A stretch of DNA of 46,435 nt from an uncultured Arenicella sp. GTDB lineage: Bacteria; Pseudomonadota; Gammaproteobacteria; Arenicellales; Arenicellaceae. A program made the position numbers and the translations under genes. A model generated the notes under the pieces. The model was not told the DNA's origin. It saw nothing but the letters and a program-made list of their open reading frames with translations, and did no database searches. Below, piece after piece: positions 667 through 12,613 of this stretch (its first letter is position 1; every line of letters starts with the position of its first letter). The DNA lies in the NCBI GenBank assembly GCA_938045295.1, contig CALINO010000005.1:1-46435 (forward strand), read 5' to 3'.

Positions 667-3495
667 TTAGAAACTGCCACGTAAACCAATGGTCCAACGA
701 GAACCGTTTTCTTCGTACGTTTCTAACAACTGACGTGTTTCTGAAAAGCGGAAAAATGGCTCGTCAAGCACATTCACACCGTCTAAGAAAGCCGTCAGAG
801 AGTCATTGATATCGTAACTAATGGACAAATCCACTTGAGTGTTGTCATCAACGAACTCGTTTCGGCCACCTTCAATGGTTTGACCGACCAAGTATTCACT
901 TCGGTAGTTGCCAGAAATTCGAGCGGTAAAACGCTCACCTTCATAGAAAACAGAAAGGTTAGCCGCTTCGTCTGAAATGTTTTCCAACGGAAGATCACTG
1001 ACTGCACCGGCTGAACTTGCTTCGCTGTCGGTCAAAGTAACATTCGCTGCGACACCAAAACCACTGTTGCTTAGATATTGACCACCTAATTCAATACCTA
1101 ATATTTCAGCTTCATCGCCATTTTCAGGGCGCTGAACTAAGAAGTTAACAGTTTGAGTACCTTGGTTAACACCGTTGTTCGTAAAGTTAACAGACACTGG
1201 CTCTGTGGTTACCACTTGCGTTACAAAGTTAGAAATGTCTTTGTAGAACAACGCGGCTGATGCGGATGTACCGCCTTCGCCATACCACTCTAACGACAAG
1301 TCAATGTTGTCAGACTCAATGGCTTCTAACTCAGGGTTGTTTACCGTAATGGCTTCACCACCTCTGTTTTGACTGGTAACGATAAACGACGTTGAAAGGC
1401 TGGTTAACGTTGGTCGTGACACTGTTTTAGATAATGCTCCACGCAAAACCAAATCGTCTCTTAAATCAAAGCTGATATTAAATGACGGTAAGATGTCCGT
1501 GTAATCATTATCAAGGCTCAGCGCTCGAGGTGCCGCAATAGTAAAGTTTTGGTTATTACCATCAGACAGCAATTCAATGGCTGAGATATCAGTCAGCTGG
1601 TTACCAAAACCGGTTGAAGTTAAATCAGTTTTAGCGGCACGCAAACCAATATTGGCTTTAAACGGCGTATTGCCTAACTGACCATCCCAATCATATTGCA
1701 CATAAGCACCAAGAACACTTTCTTCAACATTAGTTGAACCAGCTTCATTGATAGTGGGCGTGTATGTTCCTGCAGGTGCTTGAGAAATAAACCCAGCTTG
1801 CACCACATCAAGATCAAACCGATCAAAGTTACGAGGGATATTTGATCCAATGCCTGACAAGAAGTCAGATGGCGCACTGCCCGTTACCAAACCAGAAATA
1901 TCAACACCACCGGCGCCAACCGTTGTCGCGTATCCGCAAAGAGTACAAGCCACTGAGGTGTTTGTGAACGAACGGTTTACTTTCTGACGATCAACGTAGC
2001 TTAGGCCAACACTTAATCTAGATGTGTCGGTAAGCTCCAACTCGTAATCACCTTTTAACGAAACAACTTCGTCTTCAACCAACAAAATGTCATTACGACC
2101 AAAGTGAACTCGATAATCTTCTGGGCGAAGGTCGCCACTTGAGATGAATCCAGGCCCATTAGGGTTTGGAACGTCGAATGTGAAATCGGGCACTTCACGA
2201 CCAGTAAAGGTCTGCTGAACACGACCACCGGCAACACCCACAACAAAGAATGCACCACTGCCTGCGGCAGAACCTAAATTATCACGCTGGCCATCCGCTT
2301 TAGAGTACGACGCATCGACTACTAATGAGCTTGTGTCTGTTAGCTGCCATTCAAAATTACCACCAAACTGTATGGTTTCTGTATCACCTTCAGTTCTTCG
2401 GGCTAATGCGTCATACGCAAACGCGTTAGACGTATGGCTAACAATTTGATTGGCGTCATTAAGTTGTGCATTTGAGGTAAATCCTGGGCCGAAAGCACTA
2501 GGAAAGTAAGAGTACCCATAAATTTCACCTGGGCTTTCAAACTTGGTGTACAACGCATCAAGCGTCATAGAGAAAGTATCTGTTGGCTGATACTGCAATA
2601 CCAATGTTCCGCCAACCCTTTCACGTTCTTGTTCAGCAATAAGACCTGAAAAACCGTTAAATCGGCCTTCGCTTGTTACCAGAGGCAAACCACTGACATC
2701 ACTTAGGCCGTCGCCATTGCCGTCTTGGCCTTGCGAAGCATTACCCGCAGAGTCAACATCAACAGGGAAAATCAAGAAGTTACTTTCCGCAATATCAGTA
2801 CGGTTTTCACGTTTTTGATAAGAGATAGAAGCCAATAAGCCAATCGTGTCATCATTCCACGAATTACTGATAACGCCTGAGAATTGCGGGCTGAAATTAT
2901 CGGCTAGCTCTTCGTATTGGGTGCTAACTGAACCTGCGGCATTAAAACCAGGGTTATCTAATGGCTTTGCCGTATTTACGTTAACCAACCCGCCTAAACT
3001 TCCATCTACCTGCTTGGCCGCTGATGTTTTATAAACTTGGGCACCGCTGATTAATTCAGAAGCAATGACATCAAACGAAAACTCTCGCCCGTCATTCTCT
3101 GTTGCAATTAGACGACCATTGTATGTAACCCCATTGAATTCTTCGCCTAAGCCTCGAACCGTAATGAAGCGACCTTCACCGCCGCGAGTACGTGCAACAG
3201 CAACACCGGTGATTCTTGACAAAGAATCGGCCACATTGGCATCAGGAAATTTACCTAAATCTTCTGAAGAAATGGCATCAACTACGGTACTTGAACCGCG
3301 CTTGAATTCTGAAGAATCTTGCAACGATTTGAAAATACCGGTGACAACCAATTCTTCAAGCACTTCATTTTGAGCATTGGCCGTACCACTGATACCAAAT
3401 GCAGACACGGCACCAGAAACAGCAATGGCGACAGCATTTCTCCTAAATCTCACAGCAGAACTATGAGTTGTTTTCTTGTTAGATCTATTCGACAT
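667..3495 (-). CDS. TonB-dependent outer-membrane receptor (942 aa)
   Basis: Full-length TonB-dependent receptor that imports a large ligand across the outer membrane. Residues 1-42 form a signal peptide ending ANAQ. A TonB box-like LEELVVTG follows near 47-54. The plug runs from about 65 to 175 (DLGKFPDANVADSLSRITGV, RGLGEEFNGVTYNGR), then a 22-strand-type barrel ends in an aromatic residue (GLRGSF). It belongs to the TIGR01782 group common in marine Gammaproteobacteria, often linked to polysaccharide or peptide uptake; the ligand here is unknown. A CTLCG cysteine pair sits mid-barrel, probably in an external loop. The start at 3495 is fixed by AAGGAG. A terminator follows at 606-638 and a paralogue lies downstream. 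Confidence 0.96.
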   Translation of the reverse strand: MSNRSNKKTTHSSAVRFRRNAVAIAVSGAVSAFGISGTANAQNEVLEELVVTGIFKSLQDSSEFKRGSSTVVDAISSEDLGKFPDANVADSLSRITGVAVARTRGGEGRFITVRGLGEEFNGVTYNGRLIATENDGREFSFDVIASELISGAQVYKTSAAKQVDGSLGGLVNVNTAKPLDNPGFNAAGSVSTQYEELADNFSPQFSGVISNSWNDDTIGLLASISYQKRENRTDIAESNFLIFPVDVDSAGNASQGQDGNGDGLSDVSGLPLVTSEGRFNGFSGLIAEQERERVGGTLVLQYQPTDTFSMTLDALYTKFESPGEIYGYSYFPSAFGPGFTSNAQLNDANQIVSHTSNAFAYDALARRTEGDTETIQFGGNFEWQLTDTSSLVVDASYSKADGQRDNLGSAAGSGAFFVVGVAGGRVQQTFTGREVPDFTFDVPNPNGPGFISSGDLRPEDYRVHFGRNDILLVEDEVVSLKGDYELELTDTSRLSVGLSYVDRQKVNRSFTNTSVACTLCGYATTVGAGGVDISGLVTGSAPSDFLSGIGSNIPRNFDRFDLDVVQAGFISQAPAGTYTPTINEAGSTNVEESVLGAYVQYDWDGQLGNTPFKANIGLRAAKTDLTSTGFGNQLTDISAIELLSDGNNQNFTIAAPRALSLDNDYTDILPSFNISFDLRDDLVLRGALSKTVSRPTLTSLSTSFIVTSQNRGGEAITVNNPELEAIESDNIDLSLEWYGEGGTSASAALFYKDISNFVTQVVTTEPVSVNFTNNGVNQGTQTVNFLVQRPENGDEAEILGIELGGQYLSNSGFGVAANVTLTDSEASSAGAVSDLPLENISDEAANLSVFYEGERFTARISGNYRSEYLVGQTIEGGRNEFVDDNTQVDLSISYDINDSLTAFLDGVNVLDEPFFRFSETRQLLETYEENGSRWTIGLRGSF

Positions 3496-4740: not shown

Positions 4741-5724
4741 TTAAGCGGCATCGTCCATCAGGCATTGCAATGCCGCTAATACCGCATTCGCTTCTTTGAG
4801 CCTTTTGATGGTCATAAACGCGTCTTTGGCTTCTGGGTAGGTGACTTGCAAAAAGCCCAACCACTGCTTAGCCCGATTGCCCACAAACATGGGGTGCAAA
4901 TTGGTGGTGTTACGCAAATAAATGATTAACTTATCCAGCACTTGGGTCCAAGACAAGCAATCGACGGCTTGATCAGCCATATTTGCTTTTATTTGCCGAG
5001 CTAAATCTGGGGTTCTTAATGCCCCCCGACCTAACATGATGTGCTGGGCGCCGCTTTGCTCTAAGGCTTGTTGCGCAGACTGAGTGCACCAAACATCACC
5101 ATTGACAATGAGCGGCAAATTCACTGAACGGGTGAACTCGGACACACGAGCTAACTCATGCCAAAATGCCGGCGGCTTATAACCGTTCTCTTTCGTGCGC
5201 GCATGCACACACAGCTCGCTGGCACCGGCAACAGACACTTCTTCAACGATGCGTTCTAAATCGTCCGTATGGCTGAAACCTAAGCGAATTTTAGCCGTCA
5301 CCGGAATACTGGGGTCAACCGCATCGCGCACGGCGGCGACTATCTGCCCAACGCGTTCAGGTTCACGTAACAAGACCGACCCACCTTCTCGGCGATTGAC
5401 GGTTTTAGACGGGCAACCAAAATTCAAATCAATGCCTTTGGGCTCCAATTTCGCCAAACGAGCAGCGTTAGCCCCCATGGCCTCAGCATCACCGCCGAGT
5501 AACTGCACATACACCGGCACGCCTGCGCGAGTGAGCCCGCCATTTTTTAATTCTGGTGCATACTTGAAAAACACATGATCCGGAATATTCTGCTGGGTAA
5601 CACGCACAAATTCGGTCACACAGCGGTCGTAGCCGCCCACTGCTGTGAAGACCTCACGCATTTCGGCATCAATCACGCCTTCCATGGGCGCGAGAACGAT
5701 TTTGCTTTGGGCGTTAGTGGGCAC
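4741..5724 (-). CDS. dusC: tRNA-dihydrouridine(16) synthase DusC
   Basis: FMN-dependent enzyme that reduces uridine in the tRNA D-loop, using NADPH. It has the family opening VLAPMEGVID, the catalytic cysteine in NFGCPSKTVN (about C104), VTAKIRLGF, the phosphate-binding NGDVW and LGRGAL. The length (327 aa) and the GGSVLL motif after the active site fit the DusC branch, which modifies U16. The start codon is GTG at 5724; no ATG in frame precedes the conserved core and no clear ribosome-binding site is visible. It is probably transcribed alone. Confidence 0.94.
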   Translation of the reverse strand: MPTNAQSKIVLAPMEGVIDAEMREVFTAVGGYDRCVTEFVRVTQQNIPDHVFFKYAPELKNGGLTRAGVPVYVQLLGGDAEAMGANAARLAKLEPKGIDLNFGCPSKTVNRREGGSVLLREPERVGQIVAAVRDAVDPSIPVTAKIRLGFSHTDDLERIVEEVSVAGASELCVHARTKENGYKPPAFWHELARVSEFTRSVNLPLIVNGDVWCTQSAQQALEQSGAQHIMLGRGALRTPDLARQIKANMADQAVDCLSWTQVLDKLIIYLRNTTNLHPMFVGNRAKQWLGFLQVTYPEAKDAFMTIKRLKEANAVLAALQCLMDDAA

Positions 5725-5851: not shown

Positions 5852-5877
5852 TGTAGCAAACTAGATTGTTTGCTACA
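5852..5877 (-). repeat. Perfect 10-bp hairpin overlapping a stop codon
   Basis: TGTAGCAAAC (5852-5861) and GTTTGCTACA (5868-5877) pair perfectly around a 6-base loop. The TAG stop of the acidic secreted protein (5873-5875) lies inside the stem. There is no T-tract after it, so it is not a standard terminator; it may protect the mRNA 3' end or be a weak terminator. Confidence 0.6.
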
Positions 5878-7141
5878 ACTGCGACACACCATCAAGGTCG
5901 ACCGCATCGATCAGCGAATTGCGAATTTTCAATACACCTTCACCGTCATCACCTTGCTCAACTTTTAGTTCTTCGTCATTACCGCCCACAGCAATCGACT
6001 TCAATACACGAACCTTAACATTGCCACTGTCTTCTTCTTCAAGCTCAATGCCTTCTTTTGTTCCATTATTGTTAGCTATTGTTATTGAGCCTAAGGCTAC
6101 TTGTAAATCACCTTCACCTTCTTCAGACGCTTTTAAGCCTTCGTCGCTGTTACCAGACAATATAACCTGCTTAAGGCGTGTCACGATGTCTCCAGCATCT
6201 TCTTCGTCAAAGTCTAAGCCTTCGTCAAAATTATTAGTCACCCGAGTATTAGTAATGCTGGCGTATATTGAACCTTCACCGGCCTCATCAATATCAAAGC
6301 CATCATCCACGTCGGCATCACCGTCGTCATCGCAAGCGCTATTAAGCACGAATGGTATGCTGATGCAGTACTCGCCATTACTATCAAAGACAGAACCATC
6401 AACCGAAGCTACTACGTCACCATTGTCGCCTTCATCTAGTTCAATGCCATCGGCACCCACATTGCTAAAAATCGAGTTAATAGCACTGAAGTAAATATCG
6501 CCGTCACCACGTTCATCCACTCGAACGCCGTCAGCGTCTTGCCGACCAAAGCCAACATTATCAACCACAACTTGGTTCAGCTTCACACTAACGGAAGCCG
6601 GCGAACCTTGTCCCAAACCGCCACTGCCACCACCGCATTGATCGCGCAAAGTACAGTCAGACACATGAATGCCATGATTACCAACGTTGCTTACCGACAC
6701 ACTGCTGAGCTTGACCAACACCAGGCCTTCACGAAATTCCGGCACATTAACAAACACGCCCTTACCGCCTGTGGGTAATTCAGGGCTTTCATTGACCTCG
6801 AATGAAGAACCCACAAAGTTCAAATCATCAATGGTTAAATTAGCCCCGTTCAGTACAGAAAAAATATCGTCCGTGGCGGGTAATTGTGACGCATCAACCG
6901 TTTGCCCATGAGCAATAATACGCAAAGCGGCAGTGCCTTCATAAACCAACGGCTGAGTAATTCTAATCGCGGGCACTGAGCGCGGCACGCGAATTACATT
7001 AGCTCCGCTTTGAAGTGCGGCACGTAACGAGCCAGCACCATCATCATTACCATTAAGCACCACTGACGTTGCCGAATAAGCCGTTGAGCTTACCAGCAAC
7101 CCCATCAGTACCAATCCTTTTGAAAATGTGTGTTTGTTCAT
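5873..7141 (-). CDS. Secreted, highly acidic beta-solenoid repeat protein (422 aa)
   Basis: I do not recognise a named family. Residues 1-24 are a signal peptide (ending AYSA). Then comes GNDDGAGSLRAAL, which resembles the first coil of parallel beta-helix proteins. From about residue 204 to 416 the chain is made of units near 27 residues with the pattern [DE]-G-h-x-h-[DE]-E-x3-G-[DN]-h, then alternating hydrophobics and an Asn near the unit end. This is what a right-handed beta-solenoid with an acidic, probably cation-binding face looks like. One unit carries a DDDGDADVDDG insert similar to calcium loops, and there are two cysteine pairs (CTLRDQC; C-x11-C). No catalytic motif is visible. Start ATG 7141; no ribosome-binding site seen. 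It stands alone between dusC and tex. Confidence 0.85.
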   Translation of the reverse strand: MNKHTFSKGLVLMGLLVSSTAYSATSVVLNGNDDGAGSLRAALQSGANVIRVPRSVPAIRITQPLVYEGTAALRIIAHGQTVDASQLPATDDIFSVLNGANLTIDDLNFVGSSFEVNESPELPTGGKGVFVNVPEFREGLVLVKLSSVSVSNVGNHGIHVSDCTLRDQCGGGSGGLGQGSPASVSVKLNQVVVDNVGFGRQDADGVRVDERGDGDIYFSAINSIFSNVGADGIELDEGDNGDVVASVDGSVFDSNGEYCISIPFVLNSACDDDGDADVDDGFDIDEAGEGSIYASITNTRVTNNFDEGLDFDEEDAGDIVTRLKQVILSGNSDEGLKASEEGEGDLQVALGSITIANNNGTKEGIELEEEDSGNVKVRVLKSIAVGGNDEELKVEQGDDGEGVLKIRNSLIDAVDLDGVSQL

Positions 7142-7252: not shown

Positions 7253-9598
7253 TTACTTTTTAAACGCCGCCGCCAACTTAGCCGCCATGGCATTATTGGC
7301 CATTGGTTTTGCTGGTTTGGCTTTTCTTTCTTGCTGACGATTCATGCGCGGTTTCGCCTTGCCAGCAGCACCACCTCGATCACGCTGCTCCTGCTTAGTG
7401 TCTTGCAAGCGCATGGTTAACGCAATTCGCTTACGCTGAATGTCCACTTCCATCACTTTAACTTTTACAATTTGCCCCGCTTTGACAACGGAATGAGGGT
7501 CTTCAACAAATTTATCAGCCAAACACGAAATGTGCACTAACCCGTCTTGATGCACGCCAATATCAACAAACGCACCAAAGTTAGTAACATTGGTGACCGT
7601 GCCTTCTAGAACCATGTCTTCGGCTAAATCTTTAATGCTTTCAACGCCGTCTTTTAAATTGGCGGTTTTAAATTCAGGCCGTGGATCACGCCCTGGTTTA
7701 TCAAGTTCATTAATAATGTCAGTAATGGTCGGCACACCAAATTGTTCGGTAGTGTAGTCTTGCGGCTTCAGTGATTTTAAAAACGCACTGTCGCCAATAA
7801 TCGAATTGATTTCTCGGCCATTCTTCTTTGCAATGGCTTCTACCACACCATACGCTTCAGGGTGTACCCCAGAGGCATCAAGCGGATTAGCATTACTTGA
7901 TACAATGCGTAAAAAACCAGCCGCTTGCTCAAACGTTTTGTCGCCCAAACGTGGCACCGCCTTTAGCGCTTCACGACTATTAAATTCACCGTTGGTGTTA
8001 CGGTATTCAACAATATTGCTGGCGATGGTTTCGTTTAAGCCTGACACACGCTTGAGCAATGGCATGGACGCCATATTTAAATCCACGCCCACGTCGTTTA
8101 CGCAATCTTCAATCACGGTATCGAGCTGCCGCCCTAGTTGGTATTGATTCACATCGTGCTGATACTGACCAACCCCAATTGACTTTGGTTCAATTTTCAC
8201 CAACTCCGCCAACGGGTCTTGTAAGCGGCGCGCAATTGACACGGCACCGCGAATCGTAACATCCAAGTCAGGGAACTCTTTGGCCGCAAACTCAGAAGCT
8301 GAATACACCGAAGCACCGGCTTCGTTCACCATCACCTTCTGTAATTTCAGCTCAGGGTGAAGCTTAATTAAGTCACCGGCTAGCTTGTCTGTTTCTCTTG
8401 AAGCCGTACCATTACCCACCGCAATCAATTGCGCATCGTGCTTTTTGGCTAACACCGCCAACTCGGCAATGGCTTGGTCCCATTGATTCTTAGGCGCGTG
8501 TGGGTAGATTGTGCCTTGATCACGATACTGACCAGTGTTATCCACCACCGCCACTTTAACCCCTGTGCGCAAACCTGGGTCTAGGCCGATGGTTGCTTTA
8601 GCACCGGCAGGCGCGGCCAACAACAAATCTTTTAAATTAGTAGAGAACACTCGAATGGCTTCCATTTCCGCGCGCTCTTTTAAGCCAAACATTAAATCAC
8701 CGCTCACGTGCAGTAAAATTTTAATGCGCCACGCCCAGCTGACCACTTGCGCTAACCATTTATCCGCCGGGCGACCTTGGGCCGCAATATTAAACGCTTT
8801 CGCCACCATTTGCTCGCACGGGTGCGCCAAGTCGCCCAACCAGCCTTCTTCCGGCGCTTCAAGGTCTAAAGTGGAAACCAAGATGCCTTCATTACGCCCA
8901 CGAAAAATCGCCAACGCTCGGTGCGACGGTATGTTTTTATAAGGCTCTTGATAGTCAAAATAATCGCGAAACTTAACGCCTTCTTGCTCTTTGTCTTTGG
9001 CCACGTTCACGCTCACCACGCCCTTGTCTTGCAACAAGGTACGAATGTCATTCAGTAAGCTGGCGTCTTCCGCAAAGCGCTCCATCAAAATAGCACGTGC
9101 CCCGTCCAGTGCTGCTTTAACATCAGGCACCGGCGTTTCTTCGGCGTCGTTTAAATAATTCGCCGCTTGCTCTTCTGGCACCAGCATGGGGTCGGCCAAT
9201 AATGCTTCGGCCAATGGCTCAAGCCCGGCTTCAATCGCAATTTGGCCTTTGGTTCTGCGCTTAGGCTTATAAGGCAAATACAAATCTTCAAGCACGGTTT
9301 TTGTTTCAGCCGCTTGAATGTCTTTTGCCAAGTCATCATTTAGCTTACCTTGCTCTTCAATGCTGTTTAAAATACTCTGCCGTCGCTCTTCAAGTTCGCG
9401 CAAATATTTAAGGCGCTCTTCCAGAAGACGCAATTGCGAATCGTCCAACCCGCCCGTTACCTCTTTACGATAACGCGAGATAAACGGCACGGTGGCACCT
9501 TCATCCAACAACGTAATGGCGGCCGTTACCTGCGCTTGATTAACTGGGCTGGCTGCTTGAGACAACTCTTCGGCAATGCGTTTTTCAATAGACTGCAT
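7253..9598 (-). CDS. tex: Tex family RNA-binding transcription accessory protein
   Basis: 781-residue homologue of Tex, an RNA-binding protein tied to transcription and RNA decay. Domains in order: Tex N-terminal helical region ([33 protein letters not shown]), a YqgF/RuvX-like fold ([18 protein letters not shown]), helix-hairpin-helix motifs ([15 protein letters not shown]) and a C-terminal S1 RNA-binding domain ([26 protein letters not shown]). A basic, Ala/Lys-rich tail follows. I chose ATG 9598 because GAAG lies six bases upstream and the protein then aligns with E. coli Tex; a TTG four codons earlier (9610) is also open. Confidence 0.96.
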
Positions 9599-9801
9599 AA
9601 AAGACTTCAACTGATAATTTAAACGAATTAAGCGCCCAATTATCTGCGGGTAGTGTTACCAGTTCAACCACTATTTTAATCGGCTGTTATCTGTGATTTT
9701 AGTCGCACCACAAAAGAACATTACAACTGGACAGAAGTCACAGCAAGCTGGCTTTATTAGACCATTGCCCAGCAACAAAACTAGAATACCTCCTGTTTTA
9801 A

Positions 9802-9817
9802 TTTGTTTGTTTGTTTG
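9802..9817 (+). repeat. TTTG x4 tetranucleotide tract upstream of the S8 protease
   Basis: Four perfect TTTG units lie 61-88 bases before the likely start of the protease gene, in its promoter or leader region. Tetranucleotide tracts can change length by slippage, but four copies is short for that. Confidence 0.7.
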
Positions 9818-9889
9818 TGCCAACTTAAAATACTGTGTCTTCGCTGGCTCTTTGCAGCCGTTGGAATATTTAGATTGATGGGAATAAAA

Positions 9890-11341
9890 ATGGATCACCT
9901 TATTAAAAGCGTTACAGTCACTGCAAATGCTCTTTTTATGCTTTTGCTTTTCACTACAGCTATTGGGCAAGTGGCTCACGCCAATGAACTAAAATTATCC
10001 AATAGTACTAATGAATTTATCGGACAACAGCTTTCTGACTCTGGAACAGTCAGTGTGATTGTTGAGCTTTCACCAAGCACCACAATGCAAGGCTTGTCTG
10101 GCTCATCATTAAAAGAGCATTCAAGACTGTCAAAATCAAATTTTAGAAATACGCTTTCTCAATCACTTCAAACTAAAATAACGGATGAGTTCGATTACTT
10201 TCCTGGGGTGGTGTTTAACATTACCGCTGAAGAATTAACGCTATTAAAAAAACAACCTGGAATTAAAAATATTTACCCTAACCGTTGGCGCCAATTATCA
10301 CTCGCTCAGACCACAAAAATAGTTTACCCAAGACAACAGAAGACACCGTTTAATGGCAATAATGAATGGGTTGTAGCGGTATTAGATACCGGCGCAGACC
10401 TGAACCACAGTTTTTTAAAGTCTAACGGTGTCAACAAGATCGTTTCTGAGGCCTGTTACTCTGGTGCTGGCATACGAGACCCTCGAGTAATCAGCCTGTG
10501 CCCAGGTAGAGCTTTTTCTTCAACTGGAACCGGCTCAGGAAGAAGTTGTTCCGGAGTCGATGGTTGCTTTCACGGCACGCATGTGGCGGGTATTGCTATA
10601 GGTGATCGTGATACGGATGGGGCTGCTGATGGCGTTGCCCATAAAGGCAAATTAATGCCCATACAAGTTTTTACCCGAATAAACGACGCCCCTACTTGCA
10701 GAGGGCCATCCAGTTGTGTATTAACTGCTGACAGTGATTGGATAAAAGGTTTAGAGCGGGTATATACATTACGTAATACATTTAAGTTTGCGGCTGTAAA
10801 CATGAGTCTTGGCGGTGGTAGTTTTAGCAGCTCATGCAACTCAGAAAACCCTGCAGCCACCAGCATTATTAATCGGCTTAGAAATGCCGGCATTGCAACG
10901 GTAATTGCGGCCGGGAATGATGGCTTTGGCACTCGATTGAGTTACCCAGCCTGCATTTCCAGTGCCATTTCTGTCGGTGCAACGACTGACTCAGACGAAA
11001 TTGCTTTTTTCAGTAACGAAAATTCTCAATTGGATTTATTCGCTCCCGGCGTCGATGTTATATCATCAACTCCCGGCGGTGGATTTGTATCGGCAAGCGG
11101 CACCTCGATGGCCGCACCGCATGTGGCTGGAGCATTCGCGGTAATTAAACATGCTCAACCCGACCTTACCGTAAACCAAATTGAAACTCTGTTAAAACGT
11201 GTAGGACCACAAGTTCAACTAAGCTTCATCTCAACCAGCCGACGTCGCCTGGCCATTCGTGATGCATTGAAAGAACTAGGGGTCATTGACGACACCATCA
11301 TCACGCCCATTTTAAATATGTTATTACTTGAAGAAGAGTAG
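9890..11341 (+). CDS. Secreted subtilisin-like serine protease (peptidase S8, 483 aa)
   Basis: Signal peptide (residues 1-31, ending VAHA), an I9-type propeptide (VSVIVELSPS to GIKNIYPN, about 53-131) and an S8 catalytic domain. The triad is visible: D166 in AVLDTGAD, H228 in FHGTHVAG and S406 in SGTSMAAPHVAG, with oxyanion N343 in AAGNDG. Several cysteines suggest disulfides and an extracellular or periplasmic site. Start: ATG 9890 has GGGA six bases upstream; ATG 9878 is possible, while the TTG at 9803 would spoil the signal peptide. No C-terminal sorting or extra domain is seen; the tail is short and acidic. It stands alone and is convergent with the next gene. Confidence 0.93.
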   Translation: MDHLIKSVTVTANALFMLLLFTTAIGQVAHANELKLSNSTNEFIGQQLSDSGTVSVIVELSPSTTMQGLSGSSLKEHSRLSKSNFRNTLSQSLQTKITDEFDYFPGVVFNITAEELTLLKKQPGIKNIYPNRWRQLSLAQTTKIVYPRQQKTPFNGNNEWVVAVLDTGADLNHSFLKSNGVNKIVSEACYSGAGIRDPRVISLCPGRAFSSTGTGSGRSCSGVDGCFHGTHVAGIAIGDRDTDGAADGVAHKGKLMPIQVFTRINDAPTCRGPSSCVLTADSDWIKGLERVYTLRNTFKFAAVNMSLGGGSFSSSCNSENPAATSIINRLRNAGIATVIAAGNDGFGTRLSYPACISSAISVGATTDSDEIAFFSNENSQLDLFAPGVDVISSTPGGGFVSASGTSMAAPHVAGAFAVIKHAQPDLTVNQIETLLKRVGPQVQLSFISTSRRRLAIRDALKELGVIDDTIITPILNMLLLEEE

Positions 11342-11425: not shown

Positions 11426-12481
11426 TTAATATGATGGTGTTATAAATGGCGGCTGTGTTGGGTAATAATAACTGGCAAAATTTGACATATTCGGCGAGCC
11501 TGCATCCTGCCAAGCCTGCTGCCACAACCGAGCCAGCACATCCACAGCAATAGCTAGACGTTCTATTACAAAGCGCTCATAATGTTTTGCAGCCTTACTC
11601 GTCGTTTTGCGTTGCGCTGAGAACGATCGATTATTTAGAGAGCCTTTCTCAATCAGCGAATATCGATTATCCAGTTTCATTAGCCGCTCTAAATTCGCAT
11701 GACTATCAGCAATTAGTGCCCACACTATTTTTTGCGGATCACCCAATATTTCCTTACGTTGCTTAAGCTTATAAGACTTTAACCACAAATGACGTTTGCT
11801 CGCTTTAAGTCTGACTTTTCTCGGTAATTTGAACGACAACTCAGACACCACGGCAGATTCAAAATAATAATACCGCCCTGTATTGCCACTTAGCTGGCCA
11901 TCGTGGTTTTCTGTGGTGAGATGTGGGTTGGCTAAATCGGCCACAAAATGTGCCATTAAGCCAGCGTAATTTAACGCTTGGTTAATATGATGAACTTTCA
12001 ATTCTTCAGGCTTATTGTCGAGCCCGGTTAATTCTTCAACCATCAGCTTATACAGCTGCAACACGCGCCATGGGGCCGTACCTACGTCGTCAGGCGCCAT
12101 GCCATAATCGTTACAAAGCGCCTTATACGCATCAAAGCTCAACGGCACTTTAGACCAGTCTTGAATGCCGTCGGCCAGCTTGCCTAAGTTTACTTTCTCT
12201 AGTGAAATGTAATGCGTGGGTGAATTAGCTTGCTTGGCTTGGTCACTCATATAGTCGGCACGCCACACGGTGTCTGGCGCATTAGACAAGTGCGAAAGCA
12301 GATGGTCGCGCAGCAAGAAGGGGCGCATTAAGTTAACGTCACCGCCACTTAAGTCTCTCATATGCTGCACCGCAACACGCGTGACCACATCATGACCGCG
12401 CTCACCCCAAGCCAACGCACTATGATTAATGGCAAAAAACAGCGTGACGGTTAAGGCAATGGTTAAGATTTTTACGTTCAT
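11426..12481 (-). CDS. Secreted S1/P1-nuclease or zinc-phospholipase-C-like protein (351 aa)
   Basis: The signal peptide (NHSALA) would be cut to leave tryptophan as mature residue 1, as in S1/P1 nucleases and Bacillus PLC where Trp1 binds zinc. Other likely ligands: H30 (WGERGHDVV), D70 (SNAPDTVWR), H90 (PTHYI), H178 and D182 (MAHFVAD), H187 or H193. The last motif, normally H-x3-[DE], reads YYYFE, so one zinc-2 histidine looks replaced by tyrosine. It could hydrolyse nucleic acid or phospholipid phosphodiesters, or have lost activity. The C-terminal region is basic. I chose ATG 12481 over 12499 because it gives a clean signal peptide; neither has a strong ribosome-binding site. Confidence 0.8.
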   Translation of the reverse strand: MNVKILTIALTVTLFFAINHSALAWGERGHDVVTRVAVQHMRDLSGGDVNLMRPFLLRDHLLSHLSNAPDTVWRADYMSDQAKQANSPTHYISLEKVNLGKLADGIQDWSKVPLSFDAYKALCNDYGMAPDDVGTAPWRVLQLYKLMVEELTGLDNKPEELKVHHINQALNYAGLMAHFVADLANPHLTTENHDGQLSGNTGRYYYFESAVVSELSFKLPRKVRLKASKRHLWLKSYKLKQRKEILGDPQKIVWALIADSHANLERLMKLDNRYSLIEKGSLNNRSFSAQRKTTSKAAKHYERFVIERLAIAVDVLARLWQQAWQDAGSPNMSNFASYYYPTQPPFITPSY

Positions 12482-12613
12482 TATTTCTAATTTAGGCATA
12501 AAGGATAAATGGCGTTAATAAATACTATAACGACTAAATTGATTTGATACATATAAAAGAAATTCACATTACATTGATAGTATTGCTTCACACAAACCAG
12601 TAACAATAAAAAC

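Follow-up and report, generated by a model that had tools for sequence, protein, structure and literature searches.

An unnamed family of secreted, predicted beta-helix proteins with a strongly conserved acidic face, encoded in an uncultured Arenicella

The window analysed here (the whole stretch of 46,435 nucleotides from an uncultured Arenicella sp., contig CALINO010000005.1) contains a gene for an apparently secreted protein which is confidently predicted to fold as a right-handed parallel beta-helix of the pectate-lyase-like superfamily, and whose central coils carry on one sheet outward rows of Asp and Glu that hardly vary among its relatives. The family is unnamed, its fold is known, and its invariant acidic face is unusually rich. 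By analogy with better known beta-helix proteins, this face is probably where metal ions are bound and where the protein does its work. We further propose that the secreted protein depends on a divalent cation and acts on or binds a polysaccharide, a proposal that we judge to be evenly poised between right and wrong, the metal, the substrate and the chemistry all being deduced from analogy. The family matters in that it is retained by 12 of the 13 genomes of one alphaproteobacterial genus, although neither Pfam nor NCBIfam has a model for it, and in that its invariant face pinpoints residues for testing.

Reading frame, repeats and predicted fold

An earlier note on this DNA had described a secreted solenoid-repeat protein without giving its strand. 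The protein is real and is read from the minus strand, from an ATG start (open reading frame list and translation; Table 1), and its apparent signal peptide, recognised by eye, agrees with secretion. Frame 1 of the plus strand contains many stops across the same positions, and a plus-strand coding region was set aside, although a 191-aa plus-strand open reading frame overlaps the gene at 5919-6494; note that relatives were sought, and found, for the minus-strand protein and not for this 191-aa frame. Scans for promoters (3 vs 2.5 in shuffles) and terminators (2 vs 2.1) stayed at about the level of shuffled sequence. A search for a second copy in the same genome gave nothing better than E 0.384.

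Table 1. Features of the gene and its product (positions in the window; residues in full-length numbering)
Feature	Positions	Strand	Basis
Gene for secreted 422-aa predicted right-handed parallel beta-helix protein	5873..7141	-	Stop codon 5873-5875; AlphaFold2 pLDDT 88, pTM 0.89; 30 members aligned, 26 non-redundant at 90%
Apparent Sec-type signal peptide, residues 1-23 (AYS/A), without lipobox Cys	7073..7141	-	Putative; sequence read by eye
N-terminal cap and first coils, residues 24-125, with GSLRAAL motif	6767..7072	-	AlphaFold2 model; motif in 22/30 members; insignificant profile match to VexL N-terminus, E 0.18
Gly-rich loop behind strand 158-161, residues 162-180, with C163 and C169	6602..6658	-	C163, C169, G170, G172, G177, G179 and S180 invariant, 26/26
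Acidic 27-residue coils, residues 204-396; near-invariant outward face on central coils	5954..6532	-	Self-similarity, alignment, coil layout
Loop bounded by C259 and C270 (putative disulfide), residues 259-281, short form, containing DDDGDADVDDG	6299..6367	-	Cys pair in 30/30 members; short in 6, long in 24; pLDDT <50 at 260-276

The period of about 27 residues that had been reported was recovered clearly: the lag-27 self-similarity of residues 181-416 reached 0.488, against a maximum of 0.083 in 1000 shuffles over lags 5-99, and over the whole mature protein it was -0.075 against -0.304 in shuffles. The same region is markedly acidic, with 23.7% Asp plus Glu compared to 9.6% in residues 24-180. 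The earlier note had placed a shared motif ([DE]-G-h-x-h-[DE]-E-x3-G-[DN]) in at least seven units, and this holds in part: its exact form fits four units (starting at 204, 231, 307 and 363), a relaxed form adds those at 280 and 334 to make six, and the seventh (390-416) is degenerate, with E391 in place of the Gly and the motif only partly kept. Counted from one conserved Gly to the next, the units are spaced by 27, 49, 27, 27, 29 and 27 residues, the second of these spacings (232-281) being lengthened by an insert of 22 residues and the fifth (335-364) by two residues. The DDDGDADVDDG stretch, earlier taken as an insert of one unit, is present and forms the end of the loop bounded by C259 and C270, of which the window protein has the short form. 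Indeed, the length from C259 to G281 is 23 residues in the window protein and five relatives, and 65-71 residues in the other 24 of the 30 members. Both Cys pairs (163/169 and 259/270) occur in the 29 complete members, and the latter also in a partial one (L009). The long loops, lying beside the acidic strands, could form the walls of a cleft.

With a ten-sequence alignment, AlphaFold2 returned a confident right-handed parallel beta-helix (pLDDT 88.0, pTM 0.89), in which 24 residues, mainly 116-119 and 260-276, fell below pLDDT 50; the single-sequence model was unusable (pLDDT 31, pTM 0.20). A regular right-handed beta-solenoid had been anticipated by the earlier note, and both this model and the structural matches speak for it, as a predicted rather than a solved structure. 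Foldseek matched beta-helix enzymes with modest E-values (best 9.7e-6), and VIA-align placed 443 of 583 aligned chains at Z of at least 8. The best VIA-align scores were those of the AlgE4 and AlgE6 A-modules (Z 33.4), the RbmB lyase (Z 31.5) and an alginate epimerase/lyase (8ja4, Z 29.9), followed at Z 29-30 by tailspikes, polygalacturonases and the adhesin PfbA, which is not an enzyme (Z 29.4). We take these leading matches, in part from the cited papers, to be beta-helix proteins. Since tailspikes, polygalacturonases and an adhesin also match, the fold by itself does not pick a function. The 50 structural matches listed include no entry named as a PL6 lyase, which excludes nothing. In addition, an Asn ladder at one turn, which the available part of one source gives as a feature of alginate-converting beta-helix enzymes (PMC6879350), is found here: N255, N304, N331 and N358 occupy one coil position and are invariant (26/26), the other coils having V228, S180 and G387.

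At the level of sequence families, our searches agree with the earlier failure to recognise a known family. No Pfam or NCBIfam model reached its cut-off for the window protein; Beta_helix (PF13229) scored 8.8 bits against a cut-off of 25.9. This model gave weak matches to three of the nine members compared with family models (best E 0.0062), and every other family stood at E 0.0081 or worse. The RTX (hemolysin-type calcium-binding repeat) model is absent among the families matched by these nine members at E 1, and the unit here is of 27 residues. Searching the PDB with the protein alone gave nothing at E 1, and a profile gave three insignificant matches; as an example, VexL (6fi2) aligned with the N-terminal cap region alone (profile positions 22-106, E 0.18, not significant). 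Among the open-access papers listed by our searches, from which the print literature may differ, we found none on the protein or on a beta-helix with an acidic ladder.

The conserved acidic face and its possible function

The window protein was aligned with 29 relatives and 26 rows were kept, after removal of the partial L009 and of three rows at least 90% identical to others. The face was defined on the strand behind the conserved Gly as the outward positions +2, +4 and then +5, together with the position before the Gly (-1). At +2, residues H159, R207, E234, D283, D310 and K337 are each invariant (26/26), and the column varies further on, with Val in 18 of the 26 rows at residue 366 and Glu in 19 at residue 393. 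At +4, D209, D236, D312, S339 and E368 are invariant, S161 and D285 are found in 25 rows each, and residue 395 varies. At +5, D162, E237, E286, E313 and E340 occur in all 26 rows, E369 in 25 and E210 in 23. The position before the Gly is invariant at D204, D231, D280 and E307; residue 334 is Asp in 20 rows and Glu in 6, and residue 363 is missing in 20. R211 is also invariant (26/26). The stacked Asp/Glu columns expected of a cation-dependent solenoid by the earlier note are therefore present in the coil-wise layout of the alignment on the predicted fold. The cation dependence itself is plausible.

Over six coils, the mean conservation of the face (-1, +2, +4 and +5) was 0.94 against 0.49 elsewhere (Mann-Whitney p 3.6e-10), the comparison set being seven other positions per coil that were chosen in the same script and include some inward residues. 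Left out of this comparison, the turn residues (Gly at 0 and +9, Asn at +23) show a conservation of 0.93-0.99, about that of the face, as is to be expected for turns; since Gly +9 and Asn +23 are as conserved as the face, conservation alone is no proof of function. Among the 72 acids of the mature protein, 16 of the 22 on the face (seven coils) are invariant compared to 5 of the 50 elsewhere (Fisher p 2.1e-7), and thus the acids are fixed in place and do not reflect a general surface acidity.

The earlier note had recognised no catalytic residues. Here, the mixed-charge column of H159, R207, E234, D283, D310 and K337, together with R211, looks from the alignment like a binding or active site, which speaks against that part of the note. 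The ice binding that it also listed finds no support: beta-solenoid ice-binding proteins display a flat Thr array on one sheet, and the outward columns of the conserved sheet consist of Asp and Glu, with His, Arg, Lys and Ser at a few places and no Thr ladder.

By analogy, the acidic sheet may be the counterpart of the PB1 face, which binds cations and is catalytic in beta-helix lyases. As the sheet has Asp residues on successive coils and, close to them, Arg, His and Lys, we infer Ca2+ and an anionic polysaccharide as ligands, with lyase- or epimerase-like chemistry as a possibility. In the proposed mechanism, a stand-alone secreted protein would adopt the pectate-lyase-like beta-helix fold predicted above, with one sheet, PB1-equivalent by analogy with beta-helix polysaccharide lyases and epimerases, as its working face; rows of Asp and Glu would hold divalent cations, probably Ca2+; these cations would bridge to the anionic polysaccharide; and H159, R207 and R211 at one end, with K337 at the other, would contact or modify it in a lyase- or epimerase-like manner. 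The best structural matches act on polysaccharides, which favours this proposal, as does the conservation of the face with its invariant H159, R207, R211 and K337. Against it stand the failure to find a complete active-site motif of a characterised family (the epimerase and GH28 motifs were sought), the absence of a constant gene neighbour, a number of carboxylates on the face that far exceeds the need of one metal site, the fading of invariance at the ends of the face (residues 366, 393 and 395), the presence of the non-enzyme PfbA among the matches, and the lack of an invariant Tyr on the face, the only invariant aromatic residue (Tyr, Phe or Trp) of the protein being Y258.

Several of these points would also suit a non-catalytic, calcium-loaded solenoid, namely an adhesin or a matrix or mineral-binding protein whose carboxylate ladder offers a row of Ca2+ to a polymer or surface. 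We consider it a serious rival, if a somewhat unlikely one. The recurrence of the acid columns over about six coils goes beyond what a single active site needs, no complete known catalytic motif was found in the members, a beta-helix adhesin is among the close matches, and the gene keeps no constant neighbour. However, H159, R207, R211 and K337, each the same in all 26 rows, depart from the periodic pattern, and such unique residues at fixed coils would be needless in a purely repetitive lattice. A more specific idea, which we put forward as a rather unlikely one, is that the invariant carboxylate columns would bind a linear array of Ca2+, about one per coil pair, along one sheet of the rigid beta-helix. 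The ions would then serve as a pre-spaced template for gripping a mineral or an anionic polysaccharide, and the site would be delimited by H159/R207 at one end and K337 at the other. We know of no other beta-helix family with a face of this kind, and our searches of open-access papers returned none; if calcium ions do stand in an ordered row on the face, this would be an unusual means of gripping an anionic polymer.

The invariant carboxylates on neighbouring coils can also be read as the acid and base pairs of a metal-independent beta-helix glycosidase acting on a neutral or cationic glycan, and several structural matches are indeed beta-helix glycosidases or inulin fructotransferases. We find this doubtful. 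The active-site motifs of GH28 are NTD, GHG and RIK; RIK is absent from all 30 members, as is RVK, and the shorter NTD (11 of the 30 members) and GHG (16 of the 30) are both missing from the window protein. The GH28 model is likewise absent among the families matched by nine members at E 1. Moreover, about 16 invariant carboxylates lying close together would be expected to repel one another strongly without a metal. Finally, mere marine or salt adaptation of a secreted surface, with ordinary coils and no special face, is very improbable, as the acids should then spread over all surfaces and drift instead of being invariant chiefly on the face, even though the calculated pI is low (4.05-4.39 in nine members, signal peptides included) and the named hosts belong mostly to marine genera.

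Distribution and gene neighbourhood

When 84,980 species genomes were scanned by pattern, 141 stretches were returned, nine of which encode relatives (33-59% identity), from records of Arenicella, Pseudomaricurvus, Halioglobus, a SAR11 single-cell genome, Rhodobacteraceae, Thioclava, Silicimonas, Roseicyclus and Roseibium. Profile matches were found in 6 of 41 near relatives and in 6 of 109 genomes of the order, the same six in both, all belonging to the window's own genus, where 6 of 18 genomes match with five complete genes and one short remnant with an internal stop (G013). The Arenicella record of the scan (L001) is contained in the stretch taken from a genome of this genus (G002), which points to Arenicella as the genus. 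The remnant of the same gene in G013 (contig 11, 7950-8147; L044) covers 66 residues at 45% identity, with one stop inside its 61-residue profile match, and suggests gene loss in the genus. A phylum sample of 398 genomes gave six matches, among them the window's own genome and a short, weak hit in G139. In the alphaproteobacterial genus mentioned above, which belongs to the Rhodobacteraceae, the lone genome without a match is 83% complete; among 295 genomes of that family, one per genus, nine match, two of them (G139 and G450) short and weak. Note that the family is called Rhodobacteraceae here because the Silicimonas record falls in it, the NCBI labels being Paracoccaceae. Plasmid, phage and viral collections yielded no member (72,556 records; 50,697 records; 319 pattern matches, none confirmed).

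In a midpoint-rooted tree of 29 rows, the proteins of Arenicella and Pseudomaricurvus form one group (100/100), every one of them having the short Cys loop, and the gammaproteobacterium Halioglobus groups with the long-loop proteins (100/100). When the tree is read unrooted, a single branch (89/91) can separate the seven gammaproteobacterial rows from all others, and therefore transfer between the classes is not required. The long-loop SAR11 row (L003), from a single-cell assembly, groups out of place with one Rhodobacteraceae row (97/95), reflecting either transfer or contamination of the assembly.

The gene has tex (7253-9610) on one side and a gene for a dihydrouridine synthase (4741-5724) on the other, and all three are read from the minus strand. 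The same two genes flank it in one relative's genome (G002), with one more open reading frame between tex and the gene; in another (G012), tex is upstream and the dihydrouridine synthase gene lies about 9.6 kb further on; and in two others (G008 and G017) neither was found within the stretch taken. A comparison of the first 16 kb of the window with 24 loci gave, besides the gene itself, no cluster common to more than 6 of the 25 sequences, with neighbour lists that are rough, the open reading frame picker having favoured antisense frames in some loci and the gene's own cluster having been recovered in 20 of 25. No carbohydrate-active enzyme was identified by Pfam among the ten window genes scanned around the gene, which looks like a stand-alone gene. 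Other genes of the vicinity are a TonB-dependent receptor gene (667-3495, minus), beyond the dihydrouridine synthase and MOSC genes, a subtilase-family (Peptidase_S8) gene (9803-11341, plus) divergent from tex, and a gene for a 357-aa protein (11426-12499, minus) with a sub-threshold S1-P1 nuclease match (20.6 bits vs 29.5). TonB-dependent receptors import nutrients.

Comparison with known beta-helix systems

The beta-helix fold is common among polysaccharide lyases, epimerases and hydrolases. The A-modules of AlgE4 (2pyh, 2pyg) and AlgE6 (5lw3) from Azotobacter vinelandii resemble the window protein as beta-helices over the whole length, 2pyh and 5lw3 (both at Z 33.4) aligning over 323 residues with an rmsd of 3.3 and 16-17% identity, and this shared fold shows no function. 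The acidic 27-residue coils set the window protein apart from these A-modules. AlgEs also bear a C-terminal RTX R-module, whereas the window protein ends with the beta-helix and has no such module. According to the accessible portion of one source, YG(F/I)DPH(D/E) is the catalytic motif of mannuronan C5-epimerases (PMC8824271); the AlgE epimerases carry it, whereas it occurs in none of the 30 members of the window family.

The polysaccharide lyase RbmB (9ozl, 9ozd) is likewise a beta-helix, and 9ozl aligns over 317 residues (Z 31.5, rmsd 3.2, 13% identity); its activity in the presence of calcium, as given in an excerpt of the original study, is about twice that measured after treatment with EDTA or EGTA (PMC11637428). 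For PL6 lyases, the part of the source at hand describes the use of Lys, Arg and His with Ca2+ (PMC6879350), and the window family has invariant residues of these kinds in K337, R207 and H159. In the PL9 pectate lyase Pel9A (1ru4), a beta-helix matching at Z 26.9 with 12% identity, Asp209, Asp233 and Asp237 bind Ca2+ and Lys273 acts as the base, as far as the excerpted text goes (PMC10992409). The window protein carries Asp on adjacent coils, and K337. In Pel9A, however, the three Asp residues make up one site, while the window family keeps many more invariant acids.
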